Source: Rhodospirillales bacterium BBD 1991-14 (GTDB lineage Bacteria; Pseudomonadota; Alphaproteobacteria; Kiloniellales; Kiloniellaceae). Taken from it: a stretch of 64,000 nt of DNA. The notes under the pieces were generated by a model. The model searched no databases and was not told where the DNA came from. It saw only the letters and a program-made list of their open reading frames with translations. Location of the stretch: NCBI GenBank assembly GCA_001657395.1, contig LYSY01000002.1:868001-932000 (forward strand), written 5' to 3'. Positions 5,756 through 51,291 of the stretch are shown here, in pieces; the first letter of the stretch is position 1; every line of letters begins with the position of its first letter. The translations under genes were made by a program, and so were the position numbers.

Positions 5756-5841
5756 TTGCCCCGGGCGCCCGCGAGACCGTGTTTAAGACCTGCATCATAT
5801 CAGACAAGGGAATCGGTCAAGGGGTTCGGCGTTCGGGCGGG

Positions 5842-15512: not shown

Positions 15513-15537
15513 GGAATAGATCCGGCGGCGGCGCGTT
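15513..15537 (+). promoter_or_regulatory. GGAAT-N16-CGTT motif upstream of pyc (possible chance match)
   Basis: GGAAT at 15513-15517 and CGTT at 15534-15537 are separated by 16 bases, the same arrangement as the three promoters near 41.7 and 43.3 kb. It lies about 160 bases before pyc. One such match is expected by chance in a window this size, so support is weak. The remaining sequence of 15414-15695 shows nothing else recognisable. Confidence 0.2.
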
Positions 15538-15695: not shown

Positions 15696-18600
15696 GTGAG
15701 CCCATCCCGAGTCGGCGGCGCACGGCCGCCGTTCCGCAAGCTGCTCGTCGCCAACCGCAGCGAAATCGCCATCCGCGTGCTGCGCGCGGCCAACGAGCTC
15801 GGCATCCGCACCGTGGCGATCTATTCCCACGAGGACCGCTTCGCCCTGCACCGCTTCAAGGCGGACGAGGCCTTCCAGGTCGGCAAGGGCAAGGAGCCGG
15901 TGGCCGCCTATCTGGACATCGACGACATCCTGCGGGTCGCCCGCGAAGCGCGGGTCGACGCCATTCACCCGGGCTACGGCTTTCTCTCGGAAAACCCCGA
16001 CTTCGCCGAAGCCTGTGCAAAGGCCGGGATCACCTTCATCGGCCCCAAACCCGATGTGATGCGCCGCCTGGGATCGAAGGTGGAGGCCCGGGCCCTGGCG
16101 GAGGAGGCGGGCATTCCTGTCATGCCGGCGACCGGCGCCCTGCCTCACGACGAGGCGGAGGCGGCCAAGCTGGCCGAAGACATCGGCTATCCCATCATGG
16201 CCAAGGCCTCCTGGGGCGGCGGCGGACGCGGCATGCGGGTGGTCGAGGACGCCGGGCAGCTTCACGAGCAGGTGGCGGCGGGCCGGCGCGAGGCCAAGGC
16301 CGCCTTCGGCAACGACGAGATCTTCCTGGAGAAGCTGGTGCGCCAGGCGCGCCACGTGGAGGTGCAGGTCCTCGGCGACACCCACGGCAACGTCATCCAT
16401 CTCTTCGAGCGCGACTGCTCCATGCAGCGGCGCAACCAGAAGATCGTCGAGCGCGCGCCGGCCCCCTATCTCAGCGAGGCCAAGCGCGCCGAACTCTGCG
16501 ACGCCGCTGTGCGCCTCGCCCGTGCCGCGGGGTACGAGTGCGCCGGCACGGTCGAGTTCCTGATGGATGCGGAAACCGACGCGCTCTACTTCATCGAGGT
16601 CAATCCCCGCATCCAGGTGGAGCACACGGTGACCGAGGAGGTCACCGGCGTCGACCTGGTGAAGGCGCAGATCCGCATCTCCGCAGGCGCGCGCATCGGC
16701 GAGCCCGAAAGCGGTGTGCCGGCGCAGCACCAGCTTTCCCTCGACGGCCACGCCCTGCAGTGCCGCATCACCACCGAAGATCCGCTGAACAAGTTCATTC
16801 CCGACTACGGGCGGATCTCCGCCTATCGCGGCGCCACCGGCTTCGGCATCCGCCTCGACGGCGGCACCGCCTATTCCGGCGCCCTCATCACGCCGTTTTA
16901 CGACTCGCTACTGGAGAAGGTGACGGCCTGGGGGCCGACGGCGGCGGAAGCGACGGCGCGCATGGACCGGGCACTGCGCGAGTTCCGTATCCGCGGTGTG
17001 GCGACCAACCTCTGGTTCCTGGAGGCGGTCATCGGCCATCCCAAGTTCCAGAGCGGCGAGGCGACGACCCGCTTCATCGACTCGACGCCGGAGCTCTTCG
17101 ACTTCCACCGCCGCCGCGACCGCGCGACGCGCCTCTTGACCTTCATCGGCGACGTCATCGTCAACGGCAATCCGGAGGTCGAGGGACGGCCCCTGCCGGC
17201 CCCCACCACACCGGCGGTCCTGCCGGAGATCCCGCCCGCCAGCCTGCTGCAGGACCCGCCCGATGGCAGCAAGCAGCGTCTCGACGCACTGGGGCCGGAG
17301 GGTTTTGCCAAGTGGATGATGGAGCAGGACAAACTCCTGCTCACCGACACCACCATGCGCGACGCCCACCAGTCGCTCTTCGCGACGCGCATGCGCTCCT
17401 ACGACCTGGTCGCCATCGCGCCGGCCTATGCGCGTCTGCTGCCGCAACTGCTGTCGCTGGAGTGCTGGGGCGGGGCCACCTTCGACGTCGCCCTGCGCTT
17501 CCTGAAGGAAGATCCCTGGGAGCGTCTGGCGGCCCTGCGCGAGGCGGTGCCCAACACGCTGCTGCAGATGCTCACGCGCGGCTCCAACGGCGTCGGCTAT
17601 TCGAACTATCCCGACAACGTGGTGCGCCACTTCATCGCCCAGGCCGCCGATGCGGGCATCGACCTTTTCCGCGTCTTCGACTCGCTGAACTGGGTGGAGA
17701 ACATGCGGGTCTCCATCGACGCCATCCGCGAAACCGGCCTGCTCTGCGAGGCGGCAATCTGCTATACCGGCGACCTCTCCGACCCCGGCGAGGACAAGTA
17801 CGATTTGAAGTACTACGTCGGCCTCGCCAAGGAACTGGAGGCCGCCGGCGCCCACATTCTGGGCATCAAGGACATGGGCGGCCTCTGCAAGCCGGCGGCG
17901 GCGCGCCTGCTGGTCACCACGCTGAAGCAGGAAACCGGCCTGCCGATCCACTTCCACACCCACGACACCTCCGGCATCTCCGCCGCCTCGGTGCTGGCGG
18001 CAGCGGAAGCGGGTGTCGATGCCGCCGATGCGGCCATGGACGCCATGAGCGGCCTGACTTCCCAACCCAACCTCGGCTCCATCTCGGCGGCGCTCGCCGG
18101 CAGCCCGCGCGATCCCGGCCTGGACCGCGAGGCGCTGCGCGAGATCAACGCCTACTGGGAAGGGGCGCGGCGCCATTACGCGGGCTTCGAAAGCGAGATG
18201 CGCGCCGGCGCCTCCTCGGTCTACGAGCACGGCATGCCCGGCGGCCAGTTCACCAACCTGCAGGAGCAGGCCCGCGCCCTGGGTCTGGCGCGCAAGTGGG
18301 GCGAGGTGGAAAAGGCCTATGCCCAGGTGAACGAGATGTTCGGGGACATCGTCAAGGTGACGCCGACGTCGAAGGTGGTCGGTGACATGGCGCTCTACAT
18401 GGTCTCCAACGGCCTGACGCCGGAGGACGTGATGGACCCTGCGCGGGAGGTGGCCTTTCCCGCTTCGGTCATCGCGCTGTTCCGCGGCGAGGTGGGCCAG
18501 CCCTACGGCGGCTTCCCGGAAGCCCTGCAGAAGAAGGTGCTGAAGGGCGAGGCGCCGCTCAGCGAGCGCCGCGGCGCGACCCTGCCGCCGGCCGATCTGA

Positions 18601-19178
18601 CCGCGGTGCGCAAGGAGGCGGAGAAGAAGGCGCGGCGCCATATCGGAGAGCGCGAGCTGTCCTCCTACCTCATGTATCCGGAGGTCTTCGTCGACTACGC
18701 CAAGCACCGCCGCGCCTACGGCGACACCTCCGCGCTGCCGACGACGGTCTACTTCTACGGCATGGAGCCGGGTCAGGAGATCGCCGTCGATATCGAGCGC
18801 GGCAAGACGCTCATCATTTCCTACCTGGCCCTGAGCGATCCCGACGACGAAGGCCAGCGCACGGTCTTCTTCGAACTCAACGGCCAGCCCCGCACGGTGA
18901 AGGTGCTGGACAAGGCCCTGGCCGCCTCCGGCAAGGTGCGCCGCAAGGCCGACGAATCAGATCCGGGCCAAGTGGGGGCGCCCATGCCGGGCCTGATCGT
19001 CAACATCTGCGATGTCGGCAAGCGGGTCGCCGCCGGCGACCGCCTCTTCACCATCGAAGCGATGAAGATGGAAACCGCCGTCTATGCCGAGACCGCCGGC
19101 AAGGTGGGCGAGGTGGTGGCCGCCGCCGGCAGCCGCGTCGAGCCGCACGACCTGGTGGTGGTGCTGGAGCCGGCCTAG
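15696..19178 (+). CDS. pyc: Pyruvate carboxylase
   Basis: ATP- and biotin-dependent carboxylation of pyruvate to oxaloacetate, refilling the TCA cycle. The single 1160-residue chain has the expected order: biotin carboxylase/ATP-grasp (about 1-460, with KLLVANRSEIAIR near the start and the GGGGRGMR loop), carboxyltransferase (from about 547, TDTTMRDAHQSL), and a C-terminal biotinyl domain with EAMKMET (biotinylated Lys1124). Its length is normal for the family. The start is a GTG at 15696 with a GGGGGA upstream. A monocistronic gene is likely. Confidence 0.97.
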   Translation: MSPSRVGGARPPFRKLLVANRSEIAIRVLRAANELGIRTVAIYSHEDRFALHRFKADEAFQVGKGKEPVAAYLDIDDILRVAREARVDAIHPGYGFLSENPDFAEACAKAGITFIGPKPDVMRRLGSKVEARALAEEAGIPVMPATGALPHDEAEAAKLAEDIGYPIMAKASWGGGGRGMRVVEDAGQLHEQVAAGRREAKAAFGNDEIFLEKLVRQARHVEVQVLGDTHGNVIHLFERDCSMQRRNQKIVERAPAPYLSEAKRAELCDAAVRLARAAGYECAGTVEFLMDAETDALYFIEVNPRIQVEHTVTEEVTGVDLVKAQIRISAGARIGEPESGVPAQHQLSLDGHALQCRITTEDPLNKFIPDYGRISAYRGATGFGIRLDGGTAYSGALITPFYDSLLEKVTAWGPTAAEATARMDRALREFRIRGVATNLWFLEAVIGHPKFQSGEATTRFIDSTPELFDFHRRRDRATRLLTFIGDVIVNGNPEVEGRPLPAPTTPAVLPEIPPASLLQDPPDGSKQRLDALGPEGFAKWMMEQDKLLLTDTTMRDAHQSLFATRMRSYDLVAIAPAYARLLPQLLSLECWGGATFDVALRFLKEDPWERLAALREAVPNTLLQMLTRGSNGVGYSNYPDNVVRHFIAQAADAGIDLFRVFDSLNWVENMRVSIDAIRETGLLCEAAICYTGDLSDPGEDKYDLKYYVGLAKELEAAGAHILGIKDMGGLCKPAAARLLVTTLKQETGLPIHFHTHDTSGISAASVLAAAEAGVDAADAAMDAMSGLTSQPNLGSISAALAGSPRDPGLDREALREINAYWEGARRHYAGFESEMRAGASSVYEHGMPGGQFTNLQEQARALGLARKWGEVEKAYAQVNEMFGDIVKVTPTSKVVGDMALYMVSNGLTPEDVMDPAREVAFPASVIALFRGEVGQPYGGFPEALQKKVLKGEAPLSERRGATLPPADLTAVRKEAEKKARRHIGERELSSYLMYPEVFVDYAKHRRAYGDTSALPTTVYFYGMEPGQEIAVDIERGKTLIISYLALSDPDDEGQRTVFFELNGQPRTVKVLDKALAASGKVRRKADESDPGQVGAPMPGLIVNICDVGKRVAAGDRLFTIEAMKMETAVYAETAGKVGEVVAAAGSRVEPHDLVVVLEPA

Positions 19179-40210: not shown

Positions 40211-41647
<1,437 letters not shown>

Positions 41648-41685: not shown

Positions 41686-41710
41686 AACGTCTCGGGGCAA
41701 AAAAAATTCC
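41686..41710 (-). promoter_or_regulatory. Predicted ECF promoter of the S8 protease gene
   Basis: Read leftward: GGAAT (41710-41706), 16-base spacer, CGTT (41689-41686), 38 bases before the protease ATG. The spacing and both elements are identical to the promoters facing the sigma gene and the lipoprotein gene. Such elements (GGAAC-like at -35 and CGTT at -10) are known for several ECF sigma factors. Confidence 0.65.
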
Positions 41711-41721
41711 CTACCCCTTTG

Positions 41722-41746
41722 GAATATTCACTCTCGCCCGACGTTG
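41722..41746 (+). promoter_or_regulatory. Predicted ECF promoter of the sigma/anti-sigma operon
   Basis: GGAAT (41722-41726), 16-base spacer, CGTT (41743-41746), 30 bases before the sigma ATG. It shares the extended start GGAATATTC with the lipoprotein promoter at 43279. It is back to back with the protease promoter, 11 bases between the two -35 elements. This suggests autoregulation of the sigma factor. Confidence 0.65.
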
Positions 41747-41776
41747 TCCAACCGAAAAGAGGCCGAGCGCCCGTCC

Positions 41777-42274
41777 ATGTACGAAGATATCAAAGTCGAG
41801 ATGGTCGCTCTGGTGCCGCGTTTACGCCGTTTTGCCTATGCGATCACAGGATCGCAGGATGAAGGAGAGGACCTCGTGCAGGCCGCTTGCGTCAAGGCCC
41901 TGGACAGACTGGACCAGTTCAAGCCGGGGACCCGGCTGGATAGCTGGATGTTCCGTATCGTCCAGACCACCTGGATCGACCGGGTCCGCAGCCGCGGGCG
42001 GCGGGGCGAACTGGGTGATCCCGATGCGCTGGACCGGATCTCCGACCACGGAGTCGGCGCCCGGGCGGCGGAAGACCGCCTGACCCTGGAGCGGGTGCGC
42101 GCGGCCATGGCCCAGCTTCCCGAGGATCAGCGGGCGGTTCTCGCCCTGGTCGCAATCGAGGGATACTCATACAAGGCCGCCGCTGAGGCCCTGGAGACGC
42201 CCCTGGGCACCGTAATGAGCCGTCTGGCCCGTGCCCGGTCCAAGCTCCTGCCGTTGCTGAAGGAGAGTGAATGA
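41777..42274 (+). CDS. ECF-type RNA polymerase sigma factor
   Basis: A 165-residue ECF sigma factor with region 2 (LRRFAYAITGSQDEGEDLVQ in outline, then LDSWMFRIVQTTWIDRVRS) and region 4 (LPEDQRAVLALVAIEGYSY, TPLGTVMSRLARARSKL). It overlaps the anti-sigma gene by four bases (ATGA), the classic sigma/anti-sigma coupling. Its predicted promoter has the same form as those of the divergent protease and the downstream lipoprotein, so these are its likely targets. It lacks a NepR/PhyR neighbour, so it is not the general-stress EcfG itself despite the similar promoter form. Confidence 0.87.
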   Translation: MYEDIKVEMVALVPRLRRFAYAITGSQDEGEDLVQAACVKALDRLDQFKPGTRLDSWMFRIVQTTWIDRVRSRGRRGELGDPDALDRISDHGVGARAAEDRLTLERVRAAMAQLPEDQRAVLALVAIEGYSYKAAAEALETPLGTVMSRLARARSKLLPLLKESE

Positions 42275-43062
42275 TGCCGGAAAAGGTGAGCGAAGAGCAG
42301 ATTGCCGCCTATGTGGACGGCAGCCTGGGCCCGGCGGAGGCCGCGACGGTCGCCGCCGCCCTGGCACAGGACGAGTCGCTGAGGGCCTATGCCGATGAGG
42401 TGAGGCAGGCCAGCCGGCTGCTGCGCGAGGCTTTTGAGGAGCCGATGCGTGAACCGGTCTCCGCCGACCTGAGGGCTACGATACTGGGTCCTTCCGGACT
42501 GGGCCCTACCGGCAGCCTTGACCGGGAGGCGGCAGAGCCCGGCCAGGTTGTGGACTTGGCCCAGGTGCGCAAGGCGCGCCGGCCGTGGGTCGGCATGGCC
42601 CTGGCTGCCAGCATCGCGCTGGTGATCGGCGTTTCCGCCACCTCCGTGATGATTCCCGGTGGGCCGCAGTCTGCGGATCAGGTTGCCATGGTGGGCACGG
42701 CGCCTGTCGAGGGTCCGCTGCATCAGGCCCTGGAGGTTTTGCCGAGCGGGCGGATTTCGGAAGATGGCATTCAACCTATGCTCACGTTCTACGACGGCTC
42801 CGATCGGATCTGCCGCGAGTTCGAGGTGATCCCCGAGGATGCCGTGGAATTGGCGTTCGGGATTGCCTGCCGGACCGGCGATCAGCGCTGGGACGTGGAG
42901 ATCGTCGTCACCGCGCCGAAGGGCGAGGTCGGGCCGGACGGCTTCGTGCCGGCATCCGGGCCGGGCGCTGACGCCCTGGAGGCGATGTTGGACTCGCTGG
43001 GGGCGAAGCCTGCCATTGCGCCGGCAGAGGAAACCGAGCTTCTGGATCGTGGCTGGCGATGA
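42271..43062 (+). CDS. Membrane anti-sigma factor
   Basis: A 263-residue single-pass membrane protein. The N-terminal cytoplasmic part (residues 1-107) begins VSEEQIAAYVDGSLGPAEA, typical of anti-sigma factors, without a zinc HxxxCxxC motif. One transmembrane helix follows (WVGMALAASIALVIGVSATS, about 108-127). The periplasmic domain (about 130-263) has two cysteines (DRICREFEV and GIACRTGD) that may form a disulfide. It probably restrains the preceding sigma factor until a periplasmic signal arrives. The start ATG at 42271 overlaps the sigma stop; ATG at 42274 is an alternative. Confidence 0.8.
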   Translation: MMPEKVSEEQIAAYVDGSLGPAEAATVAAALAQDESLRAYADEVRQASRLLREAFEEPMREPVSADLRATILGPSGLGPTGSLDREAAEPGQVVDLAQVRKARRPWVGMALAASIALVIGVSATSVMIPGGPQSADQVAMVGTAPVEGPLHQALEVLPSGRISEDGIQPMLTFYDGSDRICREFEVIPEDAVELAFGIACRTGDQRWDVEIVVTAPKGEVGPDGFVPASGPGADALEAMLDSLGAKPAIAPAEETELLDRGWR

Positions 43063-43133
43063 CTGCCTGTCGTTAGGACCCCTCGGAGTATTTTGACACA
43101 CCCCGTCGGGCCTGAACGCAGCTCCATCGCCAG

Positions 43134-43176
43134 GGCCGGGGACCTGCCGTAGGCAGGTCCCCGGCCTTTATCTTTT
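43134..43176 (+). terminator. Strong Rho-independent terminator after the sigma/anti-sigma operon
   Basis: A perfect 15-base stem, GGCCGGGGACCTGCC (43134-43148) with GGCAGGTCCCCGGCC (43152-43166), a 3-base loop, and the U-rich tract TTTATCTTTT. It closes the sigma/anti-sigma operon 72 bases after its stop. The AT-rich stretch at 43220-43262 follows, before the next promoter. Confidence 0.9.
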
Positions 43177-43278
43177 GGGCCCGCCACCCGCGCCGCCGCT
43201 TTGCGGATACCGAGGATTCTTCTCAAATTATTGATAAATTTGAATAAAATCAATTAACCGAAAATCGGGCTGGCGGCC

Positions 43279-43303
43279 GGAATATTCCTCTGGCCGGCGC
43301 GTT
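43279..43303 (+). promoter_or_regulatory. Predicted ECF promoter of the downstream lipoprotein gene
   Basis: GGAAT (43279-43283), 16-base spacer, CGTT (43300-43303), 51 bases before the lipoprotein ATG. The first nine bases, GGAATATTC, are identical to the sigma-gene promoter. It lies after a strong terminator, so the lipoprotein is a separate transcription unit in the same regulon. Confidence 0.65.
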
Positions 43304-43354: not shown

Positions 43355-44008
43355 ATGAAACGCCTTTGTTCCTTGCTGGTCACTCTGCCGCTGGCAGCCT
43401 GTTCGACGGATGGATTTGAGTTGCCGTCGTTCTCCTCCGTGGCCTCCCTGCTCGATCCGACTCGGCCTGAGACGCAGACGCTGAGCGGTCCGATCGAGAC
43501 CGTCTCCCGCCCCGACTTCGGCGGCAGCGAGAACATCACCGTCTCCAGCCTGACCGGTGACGGCGCCAAGAGCTTCACCGTGCGTCCCTACGGCAACGGC
43601 GTGCGTGTCAGCCAGAGCGACGGCTGCGTCTGGACCCGCTCCAGCGACTGGTTCTCGCCGTCTGACAGCTGGGCCAACTGTGGAGACTCCAAGAACTGGC
43701 ACACCGCCCAGGCCCAGGTGCGCGAGCTGGACTCGCTCTATCCGCTGAAGGTCGGCAGCACGGGCCGCTATCAGCGCAGTGCCGTCTCCCACACCGGCCG
43801 CAGCTATACCCGTGAGACCCGCTGCACGGTGACCGACGCGGTGGAAGTCGTGCGCAGCGGCCATGCGGCCACGCCGGCCTACGTGGTGGAATGCGACGAC
43901 AGCCGGCGGCTGCGCACGACCTGGTATGCCCCCGGCGAAGGCCCCATCGCTTATCGCGAAAGGCACTTCCGCAACGGCGTCGAGGAAGCCTGGGTCCGGG
44001 TCGATTGA
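43355..44008 (+). CDS. Predicted lipoprotein, likely member of the ECF regulon
   Basis: A 217-residue protein with a lipoprotein signal (MKRLCSLLVTLPLAAC, lipidated Cys16). The mature part has four further cysteines (DGCVWTR, WANCGDS, TRCTVTD, VECDDS) and a beta-rich look with repeated aromatic residues. I recognise no family. The ATG at 43355 has AGGAG 8 bases upstream. A GGAAT-N16-CGTT promoter directly upstream ties it to the adjacent ECF sigma factor. Confidence 0.78.
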   Translation: MKRLCSLLVTLPLAACSTDGFELPSFSSVASLLDPTRPETQTLSGPIETVSRPDFGGSENITVSSLTGDGAKSFTVRPYGNGVRVSQSDGCVWTRSSDWFSPSDSWANCGDSKNWHTAQAQVRELDSLYPLKVGSTGRYQRSAVSHTGRSYTRETRCTVTDAVEVVRSGHAATPAYVVECDDSRRLRTTWYAPGEGPIAYRERHFRNGVEEAWVRVD

Positions 44009-44131: not shown

Positions 44132-44260
44132 ATGGCCATTTACTTGGCAGACGAACGACAGTCCCGGCGCCGCGGACAGCGTCCCCTGACTGGAAACTGC
44201 AACCCGGCAGAGAAGTCCGGCCCCCGGCCGGTTCCTGCGGCCCTCAAGAGGAGAGCGTGA
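44132..44260 (+). CDS. Possible 42-residue basic peptide ahead of the hydroxylase gene
   Basis: A small frame from ATG 44132 to TGA 44258-44260, overlapping the hydroxylase ATG by one base (TGATG). The peptide is arginine-rich (RQSRRRGQR near the middle, LKRRA at the end) with one cysteine in GNCNPAE. No clear ribosome-binding site precedes it and its third-position GC is lower than that of neighbouring genes, so it may not be translated. If real it could be a leader peptide or a substrate of the hydroxylase; both ideas are speculative. The rest of 44009-44131 is AT-rich with no feature I can name. Confidence 0.2.
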   Translation: MAIYLADERQSRRRGQRPLTGNCNPAEKSGPRPVPAALKRRA

Positions 44261-44832
44261 TGAAGTACTTCCGTTGCATTACATCCGACGTCGATCCAGC
44301 CCCGTTCCTGGCCGAGATTAACGCCATCGATGACGCCTGGGATGCCTCGACCGGCCGGCAGGACAAGATCAAGGTCCAGCGCGAAGCCCTGTCCATTCCG
44401 CTGCGCGGGCTGCGCAAGTCCGCTATCGGCGAGCGCAAGCGCCGCGACGTGCACGAAAGCCGCTGGACGACCGGATCGAAGCGCTACCCCCTGGCGCGCC
44501 AGTTCCTGCAGGACACCGCCCGGGCGGAGTACAGCCTGCTCAGCCGCGCCAAGATCGTCTGCCTGCCGGCGGGCCGCCGGGTCTATCCGCATATCGATCG
44601 CGGCGATTACTACAAGGTCCGCAATCGCTACCACCTGGTGCTGCGGTCGGCCAAAGGGTCCTGGCTCAAGGCCGGCGACGAGGAGGTGCGGATGCAGGAA
44701 GGCGAGCTCTGGTGGTTCGACAACAAGCAGGTCCACGAAGCCTTCAACGACGGCGATCAGGACCGCATCCACATGATCTTCGATCTGCTGCCTGCTGCAA
44801 AGGCCGAAGCGGTTCTCAGCAAGGTCGCCTGA
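44260..44832 (+). CDS. Aspartyl/asparaginyl beta-hydroxylase-like 2OG-Fe(II) enzyme
   Basis: A 190-residue cytoplasmic enzyme of the Asp/Asn hydroxylase fold. Iron ligands are probably His111 and His159, with Asp113 in the H-x-D pattern of PHIDRGD. The family phrases RNRYHLVLRS, GELWWFDN and QVHEAFNDGD follow in order. Such enzymes hydroxylate aspartyl or asparaginyl residues in peptides or free amino-acid derivatives. The start at ATG 44260 follows GAGGAGA. It is the first gene of a tight rightward cluster (next gap 34 bases) ending in an ABC exporter and a two-component system. Confidence 0.8.
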   Translation: MKYFRCITSDVDPAPFLAEINAIDDAWDASTGRQDKIKVQREALSIPLRGLRKSAIGERKRRDVHESRWTTGSKRYPLARQFLQDTARAEYSLLSRAKIVCLPAGRRVYPHIDRGDYYKVRNRYHLVLRSAKGSWLKAGDEEVRMQEGELWWFDNKQVHEAFNDGDQDRIHMIFDLLPAAKAEAVLSKVA

Positions 44833-44866
44833 CTCGAGCAAGAAAACGTTACCAAGGAAGAAAACG

Positions 44867-45787
44867 ATGCTGCGCAATGTTCCCAAAACCGGTGACGCCC
44901 GGACCGACGCTGCGAAGCGGGCCGCTGACTTCACGCTCGTGAAGCGTCCTGCAAAGGGCCGCGGGGCCCTGGCCTGCTGGCTGGCCCTGCCGGCCGAGAT
45001 GGACCCCAAGGCAACGCCGCTGGTAGCCGTCCACGGGATCCAGCGCCGGGCCAAGGATCAGGCCGCGTCCTACGGTGCGCGTGCCGCTGCTCTTGGACGG
45101 CCGGTGATTGCGCCGATCTTCGACGCGCGTGCCTGGCCGCGCTATCAGCAGGTGGTGCGCAAGGGCCGGGCAGACCATGCCCTGCTCGCCCTGATGAGCG
45201 AGCTGCGCCTCACCGGCATCTGGAACACGCGCAGCTTTGAACTGGCGGGTTTCTCGGGCGGCGCCCAGTTTGCCCACCGTTTTGCCATGCTGTATCCGCA
45301 GCTGGTCTCGCGGCTCACCCTGTCGTCGGCCGGCTGGTACACCTTCCCGGACACCGCGGCCTTTCCCTATGGCTTCTCCGCGCGGCCCGGCCGGCGCAAC
45401 GATTGGGGGCCGCGCATGGCGGCCGGTCTCGACCAGTTTCTGAGGCTCCCTATTCAGGTCTGCGTCGGTGCCGAGGACAATCTGCAGGATGCCAACACCC
45501 GCAGCGGCGCGGAGATCGACCGCCAGCAGGGCAGGGACCGCCTGACGCGGGCACAGCGCTGGGCCGAGGCGATCAGCGCCGCTGCCGCCGCCCGCGGCAT
45601 TGCGCCCCAGGTGACCTTCAAGGCTTTGCCGGGCTGCGGCCATGACTTTCGCGATTGCGTGGAATACGGCGGTCTCGACAGCGTTGTTGTTCCAGGAACC
45701 GGTCCTGTCGAAGCCGCAGTGGTCCGCGGGTCAGCGGCAGGGTCAGGGTTCTCCGGCCGCGAGGTGATGCTGCAGGCCGGACTTTAA
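44867..45787 (+). CDS. Alpha/beta hydrolase
   Basis: A 306-residue hydrolase without a signal peptide. The nucleophile elbow is GFSGGAQ, the oxyanion strand is LVAVHGIQRR, and the catalytic histidine is probably in PGCGHDFRD near residue 260. The fold resembles esterase or PHB-depolymerase-like enzymes. It is encoded 34 bases after the hydroxylase gene, so the pair may act on one compound, with hydroxylation and ester or amide hydrolysis as steps. The substrate is unknown. Confidence 0.78.
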   Translation: MLRNVPKTGDARTDAAKRAADFTLVKRPAKGRGALACWLALPAEMDPKATPLVAVHGIQRRAKDQAASYGARAAALGRPVIAPIFDARAWPRYQQVVRKGRADHALLALMSELRLTGIWNTRSFELAGFSGGAQFAHRFAMLYPQLVSRLTLSSAGWYTFPDTAAFPYGFSARPGRRNDWGPRMAAGLDQFLRLPIQVCVGAEDNLQDANTRSGAEIDRQQGRDRLTRAQRWAEAISAAAAARGIAPQVTFKALPGCGHDFRDCVEYGGLDSVVVPGTGPVEAAVVRGSAAGSGFSGREVMLQAGL

Positions 45788-50385: not shown

Positions 50386-50613
50386 GTCGTGCCGTGTTGC
50401 CGGCACCGACCCTTCCGCGGAGAGTCCGCGCCGTTTTTTCACTGCCGCCCCAATCTTGTCACAGCTTTGGAGGAATAGGTGTCGCCGCGTTTCGTTGTCC
50501 TACTGACGAAGGTTGACGCGAAATACAGGGAGCAAGGACATGCACTTCAGAGGCCGCGGACTGTCGGACAGGCCGGCATTCTGTGCAGGCATGTCGGGGA
50601 GGGGGCTTTGCCG

Positions 50614-51291
50614 ATGAACATACTCTTGGTCGAAGACGAGGCGCGTGTCGCCGATTTCGTTCTCCGCGGTCTCCGTGCGGAGGGCTGGACCGTCATGCAT
50701 GCCGCCGATGCGGACATGGGTCTTGAACTGACGATGCAGGAAGGCTTCGACGTTATCGTTCTGGATCTGATGCTGCCCGGGCTGCCGGGCCAGGACTTCT
50801 GCCGCAAGCTGCGCGCGCGCAGAGACCTGACACCCATCCTGATTCTCTCTGCTTTGGATGCCCTCGATGAAAGGGTCGAGGGCCTGCGCATCGGCGCAGA
50901 CGACTACATGGTAAAGCCATTCGAGTTCGACGAACTGATCGCCCGCATCGAGGCGCTGGCCCGCCGTTCCCGCCAGTTCGTCAAGGATTCTTCGGCGGCG
51001 GTGCTGCAGGCCGGTGTCATCGCACTCGACCTTGAAACCCTTGAAGCCACCGTCGAGGGCGCGCCCATGGATCTCACCGCGAAAGAGCGCGAGATCCTGA
51101 AGCTCTTTCTCTCAAAGCCCGGCCGCGTCTTTTCGCGCGAGCGCATTCTGAATTCCGTCTGGGGCGCCAGCGAAGATCCTCTGACCAACATCGTCGATGT
51201 CTATGTCGGACGGCTGCGCCGCAAGCTCGGCTCACACGGCGCGGAGCTTCAGACCGTCCGCGGCGCCGGCTACCGCCTGCGTGCCAAGTAA
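50614..51291 (+). CDS. OmpR-family response regulator
   Basis: A 225-residue two-domain regulator. The receiver domain has phosphoacceptor Asp51 (VIVLDLMLPG), the acidic pair in LLVEDEA and Lys in YMVKPFEF; the C-terminal winged helix ends VYVGRLRRKLGS and TVRGAGYRLRAK. I chose the ATG at 50614 because it gives a standard MNILLVEDE start; in-frame upstream codons exist but add an unrelated sequence. It is the natural partner of the kinase upstream and may regulate the hydroxylase-exporter cluster. Confidence 0.9.
   Translation: MNILLVEDEARVADFVLRGLRAEGWTVMHAADADMGLELTMQEGFDVIVLDLMLPGLPGQDFCRKLRARRDLTPILILSALDALDERVEGLRIGADDYMVKPFEFDELIARIEALARRSRQFVKDSSAAVLQAGVIALDLETLEATVEGAPMDLTAKEREILKLFLSKPGRVFSRERILNSVWGASEDPLTNIVDVYVGRLRRKLGSHGAELQTVRGAGYRLRAK

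Follow-up and report, generated by a model that had tools for sequence, protein, structure and literature searches.

Genes at the locus

The stretch of DNA that we analysed, 64 kb long and referred to below as the window, carries a small cluster of genes arranged around an ECF sigma factor. The sigma gene (41777..42274, forward strand) encodes a protein of 165 aa that consists of sigma2 and sigma4 domains only (Pfam Sigma70_r2, 6.9e-15; Sigma70_r4_2, 7.4e-17), and in region 4 this protein has a GTVMSR stretch in common with SigH of M. tuberculosis, a sigma factor under zinc-type redox anti-sigma control. The ORF that follows in the same direction (42271..43062, forward strand), the start of which overlaps the sigma stop by 4 nt, encodes a putative anti-sigma factor of 263 aa, with profile matches that are both below the cut-off (NCBIfam antisigma, 1.4e-9; Pfam DUF3379, 1.2e-5).

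A helical N-terminal domain, a hydrophobic helix at residues 108-126 and a C-terminal domain can be read from the alignment of this protein and from its predicted model (mean pLDDT 81.8). The C-terminal domain contains two cysteines, C181 and C200, both present in every one of the 24 aligned rows. Zinc-binding (ZAS) anti-sigma factors carry HxxxCxxC in their N-terminal domain; in the window protein C181 is the first cysteine, and there is none before it. A Foldseek search with the model returned no match at E 0.001 or better, and the resemblance to its top match, ChrR with SigE (E 0.086), is only suggestive.

Divergent from the sigma gene lies a gene for an S8 (subtilisin-type) serine protease (40211..41647, reverse strand; Peptidase_S8, 2.9e-28). 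Judged by eye the protein has a probable signal peptide, and a long Asp/Asn-rich linker separates its N-terminus from the protease domain; the strand opposite the Asp/Asn run is open as poly-Ser. Downstream of the anti-sigma gene a lipoprotein of 217 aa is encoded (43355..44008, forward strand), with a LAAC lipobox recognized by eye. Homologues of it, 64-98% identical, were found in 8 other genomes in a search of 41. The protein belongs to no known family (a profile search gave no Pfam or NCBIfam match), and its predicted model is weak (mean pLDDT 64.5, from 4 rows); here, too, Foldseek returned nothing at E 0.001 or better. The next two genes, at 44260-45787, are aspartyl/asparaginyl hydroxylase-like and esterase-like, and this pair stands after the lipoprotein gene in all eight relatives looked at, even where the sigma factor is distant.

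Promoter-like sites in the window

The initial annotation placed the motif GGAAT-N16-CGTT before the protease, sigma and lipoprotein genes, 30-51 bases from a start codon, and all three sites are indeed present. The predicted ECF promoter of the sigma and anti-sigma genes, GGAATATTCACTCTCGCCCGACGTT, occupies 41721..41745 on the forward strand, one base to the left of its original position (41722-41746). Those of the S8 protease (GGAATTTTTTTTGCCCCGAGACGTT, 41686..41710, reverse strand) and of the lipoprotein (GGAATATTCCTCTGGCCGGCGCGTT, 43279..43303, forward strand) lie exactly where they had been placed. The distance from CGTT to the start codon is 38 nt for the protease (ATG 41647), 31 nt for the sigma factor (ATG 41777) and 51 nt for the lipoprotein (ATG 43355), in agreement with the original range.

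It had also been argued that three such sites exceed what chance would give, and this argument is upheld. A pattern search of both strands finds seven matches in the window, while 100 dinucleotide shuffles of the window give 0.21 on average and never more than 2. The remaining 5.45 Mb of the same genome contain 16 matches, a rate of 0.19 per 64 kb, and the whole genome of 5.51 Mb contains 23, against 10 for the reversed pattern. Most of these 23 matches lie in or across ORFs. Nevertheless the motif is conserved in relatives, as described below, and its distribution is not the unconserved scatter through genes that would speak against a promoter.

Beside the three core sites the window has four more matches, which begin at 5809, 15513, 45661 and 50472. 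We rejected the match at 45661 as a promoter, since it sits inside a hydrolase ORF (44867-45787), and likewise the one at 5809, which is flanked by the genes for TrkH and GTP cyclohydrolase I, both directed leftward; the rightward ORFs listed near it appear, by eye, to be spurious.

Conservation in Pelagibius and further candidate targets

Eight Pelagibius genomes were searched, including the one to which the window belongs (G000). Five of them (G000, G020, G016, G019 and G021) have the window sigma factor together with the S8 gene. Among the other three, G018 is without a sigma match at 1e-25, and nothing closer than a relative of 45-48% identity is found in G017 and G022. The sigma site is found in all five sigma-bearing genomes, with a spacing one base longer in G021. 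The protease site is found in four, being kept in G020, G019 and G021, while G016 reads GGATT. The lipoprotein site is kept in all of the other four (G020, G019, G016 and G021). It should be said that G020 adds little independent weight, because it almost duplicates the window, with a sigma factor 100% and an anti-sigma factor 96% identical.

The extended pattern GGAAT-N16-CGTTNTC has five matches in the window's own genome and none when reversed. These five precede the sigma gene, the lipoprotein gene, a response regulator gene (50472), a pyruvate carboxylase gene (15513) and a gene for a small secreted protein (G000:C9:218836); the protease site ends in CGTTGTG and hence is outside this set. 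Counted across all eight Pelagibius genomes, this longer pattern has 32 matches, against 3 for its reversed form. Of the 28 matches in the five genomes with the sigma factor, 19 stand at the identified target genes, the other 9 (one of them at G019:C175) being unassigned, and in the three genomes without the sigma factor none of 4 matches does so. A GGAATA-N15-CGTTNT sequence also occurs at G000:C13:59335-59359 (L054:2036-2060), where it begins 94 nt upstream of a 61-codon ORF.

Two of these genes, for pyruvate carboxylase and the response regulator, are unexpected but, from the sequence comparison, well conserved candidate targets. The predicted promoter at 50472..50496 (forward strand) is present in five of five sigma-bearing Pelagibius genomes and begins 139-142 nt upstream of the ATG in all of them; it precedes a gene for an OmpR-type response regulator of 225 aa (50614..51291, forward strand; Response_reg 6.7e-24, Trans_reg_C 4.3e-25). 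The gene itself is found in nine of nine genomes with the sigma factor (at 1.4e-113 or better), and was not found in G017, G018 and G022 at 1e-60. Its site is present in none of four genomes of the sister genus and is absent in G006, a genome that has a 57% identical relative of the response regulator, yet no sigma match.

The predicted promoter at 15513..15537 (forward strand) also occurs in five of five sigma-bearing Pelagibius genomes. It precedes a gene for pyruvate carboxylase of 1160 aa (15696..19178, forward strand, start GTG 15696; PYC_OADA 8.3e-79, with biotin carboxylase and biotinyl domains). This site is found in none of the three Pelagibius genomes without this sigma factor, in none of four from the sister genus and not in G006, all counts being made without loci L223-L230 (genera g3 and g5). 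Among the papers that mention pyruvate carboxylase together with an ECF sigma factor and a regulon, none concerns such a regulon as judged from its title.

The small secreted protein is a less sure candidate. Its site begins 97 nt upstream of the gene and is found in three of the five sigma-bearing Pelagibius genomes, in none of the three without the sigma factor and in none of the four of the sister genus, where the homologues are only 45-52% identical.

Conservation in more distant relatives

For a wider comparison we scanned named genomes with the sigma alignment, taking the best 80 of 544 relatives, some of which nearly duplicate one another or the window. GGAA-N15..18-CGTT was found within 160 bases upstream of the matched sigma start (the first matched residue) in 66 of 79 homologues, against 0.66% in base shuffles and 2 loci for the reversed pattern; L192 was excluded as it has no upstream DNA, and 13 homologues are without the pattern. 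Between GGAAN and CGTT there are 16 bases in 56 of the 66 loci and 17 in 10. In the 56 loci with 16 bases, T occupies the fifth position in 53 and G in 3, and A the sixth in 52; of the bases that follow CGTT, the second is T in 52 and the third is C in 31.

An S8 gene is found in the fetched flanks, upstream or downstream of the sigma gene, at 51 of 80 loci, and at 35 of the 45 loci with at least 12 kb. The site occurs on the S8 strand at 23 of the 51 loci with such a gene, and its reversed form at none of the 51; the region counted, from 300 bases upstream of the ORF to 450 bases inside it, depends on longest-ORF starts. The lipoprotein is also encoded in Limibaculum sediminis (L158), with the site kept about 70 nt upstream. 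What comparison among genomes shows is the predicted promoter elements, how far they are conserved and how the genes are ordered. It supports the regulon of sigma factor, anti-sigma factor, protease and lipoprotein that was proposed originally: the genome-wide search and the search in relatives both find the motif, at 66 of 79 sigma genes, on 23 of 51 S8 strands, and at the lipoprotein gene in five of five sigma-bearing Pelagibius genomes and four of four of the sister genus, there with a changed base.

The sister genus and the fifth base of the -35 element

The four sister-genus genomes (G001-G004) have the same cluster of sigma, anti-sigma and S8 genes, and on the same contig, 105-119 kb from the sigma gene, the lipoprotein gene. 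GGAAG-N16-CGTT, with G as the fifth base, stands upstream of sigma, S8 and lipoprotein genes in 12 of 12 regions. The longer GGGAAG-N16-CGTTGT has 11 matches in the four genomes, 10 of them at these genes, while the reversed control, with 6, is not small. In the sigma tree the G021 and sister-genus sigma factors are outside the window clade on long branches, with the deep forks unresolved, and they may be either diverged orthologues or replacements. The sister genus also has a further sigma paralogue (L252, L253 and L254), with upstream sites GGAATAAATTCG...GCGTT in which the spacing is one base longer.

The fifth base goes together with residue 147 of the sigma factor. Among sigma genes with a site, Met147 accompanies T in 60 and A in 2 (repeats included), and Thr147 accompanies G in 10 and C in 1, with 8 of those 10 distinct (L161 and L168 repeat G001 and G002). 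Fisher's test gives 7e-10 with kinship ignored, and the count is partly fitted, because the pattern was widened (GGA[AT], [CT]GTT.T) after the Thr loci had been viewed; 22 of 95 rows are without a site by this pattern. Thr147 occurs in separate groups of the tree, but a single origin is conceivable, since the tree has long branches and does not settle the deep forks. Another ECF26-like sigma factor, in G017, G022 and G016 (L250, L251 and L256), likewise has Thr at position 147, and the stretches upstream of its gene read GGATG or GGAAG with TGTTGT.

Met147 aligns with the Met of GTVMSR in M. tuberculosis SigH, which, by the residue order given in the available part of PMC6411747, would be SigH M181. 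According to that part of the paper, M181 touches the fourth and fifth -35 bases and the change M181A relaxes them. For ECF sigma factors in general, a code that relates residues to bases has been published, as told in the portion of PMC8103513 considered here. The Met/Thr147 pairing is not a new principle, because it fits these known residue-base rules.

Relationship to known ECF26 systems

Group ECF26 has been described as having a -35 element GGAATA, a -10 element GT and a membrane anti-sigma factor, and a serine protease divergent from the sigma gene is said to be widely conserved in it (PMC6180224, in part). Although one of the major ECF subgroups, it is described as poorly characterised (PMC3511301, in part). 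The window sigma factor, with sigma2 and sigma4 domains only, has the domain composition of this group. Its sites contain GGAATA and GT by sequence; the ORF overlap, the alignment and the model indicate a co-directional downstream anti-sigma factor with a cytoplasmic domain, a membrane span and a periplasmic domain; and the serine protease gene is divergent. The system most probably belongs to ECF26, which promoter form, membrane anti-sigma factor and divergent S8 gene fit. The comparison with the ECF subgroup suggested by the initial annotation points to this group, and this outcome, like the further targets and the -35 change in the sister genus, goes beyond what had been noted. A word search of PMC3420878 finds no mention of ECF26, of GGAAT, or of a subtilisin-type or other protease.

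The closest parallel among described systems is that of S. meliloti. In the accessible part of PMC6180224, RpoE6 is reported to be autoregulated, as we propose for the window sigma factor, and its overexpression raises the divergent serine protease and its own anti-sigma gene; the RpoE6 targets named there include no lipoprotein, pyruvate carboxylase or response regulator. Locus L207, on a plasmid of S. meliloti LMB1, has genes for a VOC protein, an S8 peptidase, a sigma and an anti-sigma factor in the same divergent order as the window, and from the gene order given in that part of the paper we infer that it is the published rpoE6 locus (RpoE6-EcfR6, SMa0142). Like the window it has GGAAT-N16-CGTT on the protease strand, where the site begins 134 nt before the S8 gene. 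Unlike the window, its sigma factor being 47% identical, it has no exact site directly upstream of the sigma gene but one inside the sigma coding sequence before the anti-sigma gene, and this fits the internal ecfR6 promoter suggested in the same source. In the sigma tree, which does not include RpoE1, RpoE3 and RpoE4, L207 has a long branch, and the fork where it joins is not resolved. The site is also absent directly upstream of the sigma gene at L208, on an Aminobacter plasmid, where an ECF26-like sigma gene and a divergent S8 gene lie beside genes for a response regulator, glyA and PEP carboxylase, another anaplerotic enzyme, as is pyruvate carboxylase in Pelagibius.

RpoE1 and RpoE4 of S. 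meliloti, ECF26 members that respond to sulfite, use -35 GGAAT(A) and -10 GT or CGTC, and share with the window autoregulation and a downstream anti-sigma factor; the RpoE1 operon holds a putative lipoprotein gene (PMC6180224, PMC3511301 and PMC6527743, each in part). Promoters of the sulfite branch are given as GGAAT/CGTC in the part of PMC6527743 considered. In contrast to these systems, there are no sulfite oxidase genes among the identified neighbours in the window, and while the description of SMc01418 mentions a 'lipoprotein 15' motif (PMC3511301, in part), the window lipoprotein is without a Pfam match. The window system is, in our opinion, a well-supported new example of a known, ECF26 kind.

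Proposed mechanism and alternative explanations

We consider it highly probable, on the grounds of the sequence comparisons, that this is an autoregulated ECF26-type system in which the sigma factor drives its own operon, the S8 protease and the lipoprotein, and in Pelagibius also the response regulator and pyruvate carboxylase. Autoregulation is proposed because the site is conserved before related sigma genes. What we infer about binding by this sigma factor, about the signal and the way in which it leads to release, and about the part played by the protease is as follows. The membrane-anchored anti-sigma factor would hold the sigma factor until an envelope signal, perhaps through the invariant pair of cysteines in the periplasmic domain (a possible disulfide), frees it. 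RNA polymerase with the sigma factor would then start at GGAAT(A)-N15/16-CGTTNT promoters. Self-activation of the sigma-anti-sigma operon would make a positive loop with a built-in brake, and the sigma factor would also drive the lipoprotein gene and the divergent S8 gene. In Pelagibius its targets would extend to the OmpR-type response regulator and pyruvate carboxylase and, less surely, to the small secreted protein. The S8 protease could be an output of the system, or a helper that clears the anti-sigma factor.

Another ECF26-like sigma factor of the same genome might also read some of these promoters, by cross-talk or in a shared regulon. This is compatible with our main reading, and we regard it as unlikely, if worth bearing in mind. 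It is possible because the genome has a second ECF sigma factor, 43% identical (G000:C1:606510-606962), and RpoE1 and RpoE4 of S. meliloti are described as cross-activating in the available part of PMC6180224. However, it is the window sigma gene that the motif precedes in most relatives; the second sigma gene has no motif in its fetched flanks, and the protein belongs to a distant branch of the tree.

It is still less probable that a different regulator accounts for the conservation of the sites at the response regulator and pyruvate carboxylase genes and that the regulon comprises only sigma factor, anti-sigma factor, protease and lipoprotein. Their absence from all four sister-genus genomes would agree with this, as would their position, since the distance from the beginning of the site to the start codon is 124-194 nt, compared with 56-76 nt at the window's three core sites. 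On the other hand, they have the same -35 element, spacing and CGTT, and the flanking DNA is, by eye, less alike than the sites. Both are found wherever Pelagibius has the sigma factor, and the pyruvate carboxylase site is missing from the Pelagibius genomes that do not have it.

We find it hard to believe that the promoters belong to the general stress sigma factor EcfG rather than to the linked one. EcfG (ECF15), which is under NepR/PhyR control, uses GGAAC-N16/17-CGTT, similar in spacing and -10 element but with GGAAC where the window sites have GGAAT. The regulons of RpoE6 (ECF26) and RpoE2 (ECF15) do overlap in S. meliloti according to the accessible part of PMC6180224. Yet NepR has no match in eight of eight Pelagibius genomes, while it scores over the cut-off in Caulobacter (1 of 14 controls) and in G003 and G004; as NepR is a short model, an EcfG with an unrecognised partner is conceivable. 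In the window's own genome GGAAC-N16-CGTT is near its reversed control (53 against 42), and the pyruvate carboxylase site tracks this sigma factor, not the genus. On the absence of NepR and the distribution of that site we set EcfG aside as reader of the sites. Finally, that the sites are chance matches of a nine-base pattern deserves practically no credence in view of the shuffles and the conservation in relatives, even if two of the seven window matches (5809 and 45661) do look like chance and most of the other matches in the genome overlap ORFs.

Implications of the hypothesis

Returning to the autoregulated ECF26-type system, its history may be pictured as follows. In Pelagibius, as an envelope-sensing system, it would have taken charge of central metabolism, through pyruvate carboxylase, and of a second regulator, the OmpR-type one. 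In the sister genus the core would have been kept, with G in place of T as the fifth -35 base of every core promoter and Thr in place of Met147 in the sigma factor. The regulon would then have moved as a block to a new promoter code, maybe by a one-residue switch. Our confidence in this picture is evenly divided.

For ECF26 the analysis yields a promoter consensus drawn from 66 loci, together with a core of protease and lipoprotein and a definite list of candidate targets. The pairing of Met or Thr with T or G is a test case, provided by nature, for the way in which promoter code changes among ECF sigma factors. As for the bacterium itself, which is marine, a stress-type sigma factor acting before pyruvate carboxylase would link the entry of carbon into the TCA cycle to a signal from the envelope.
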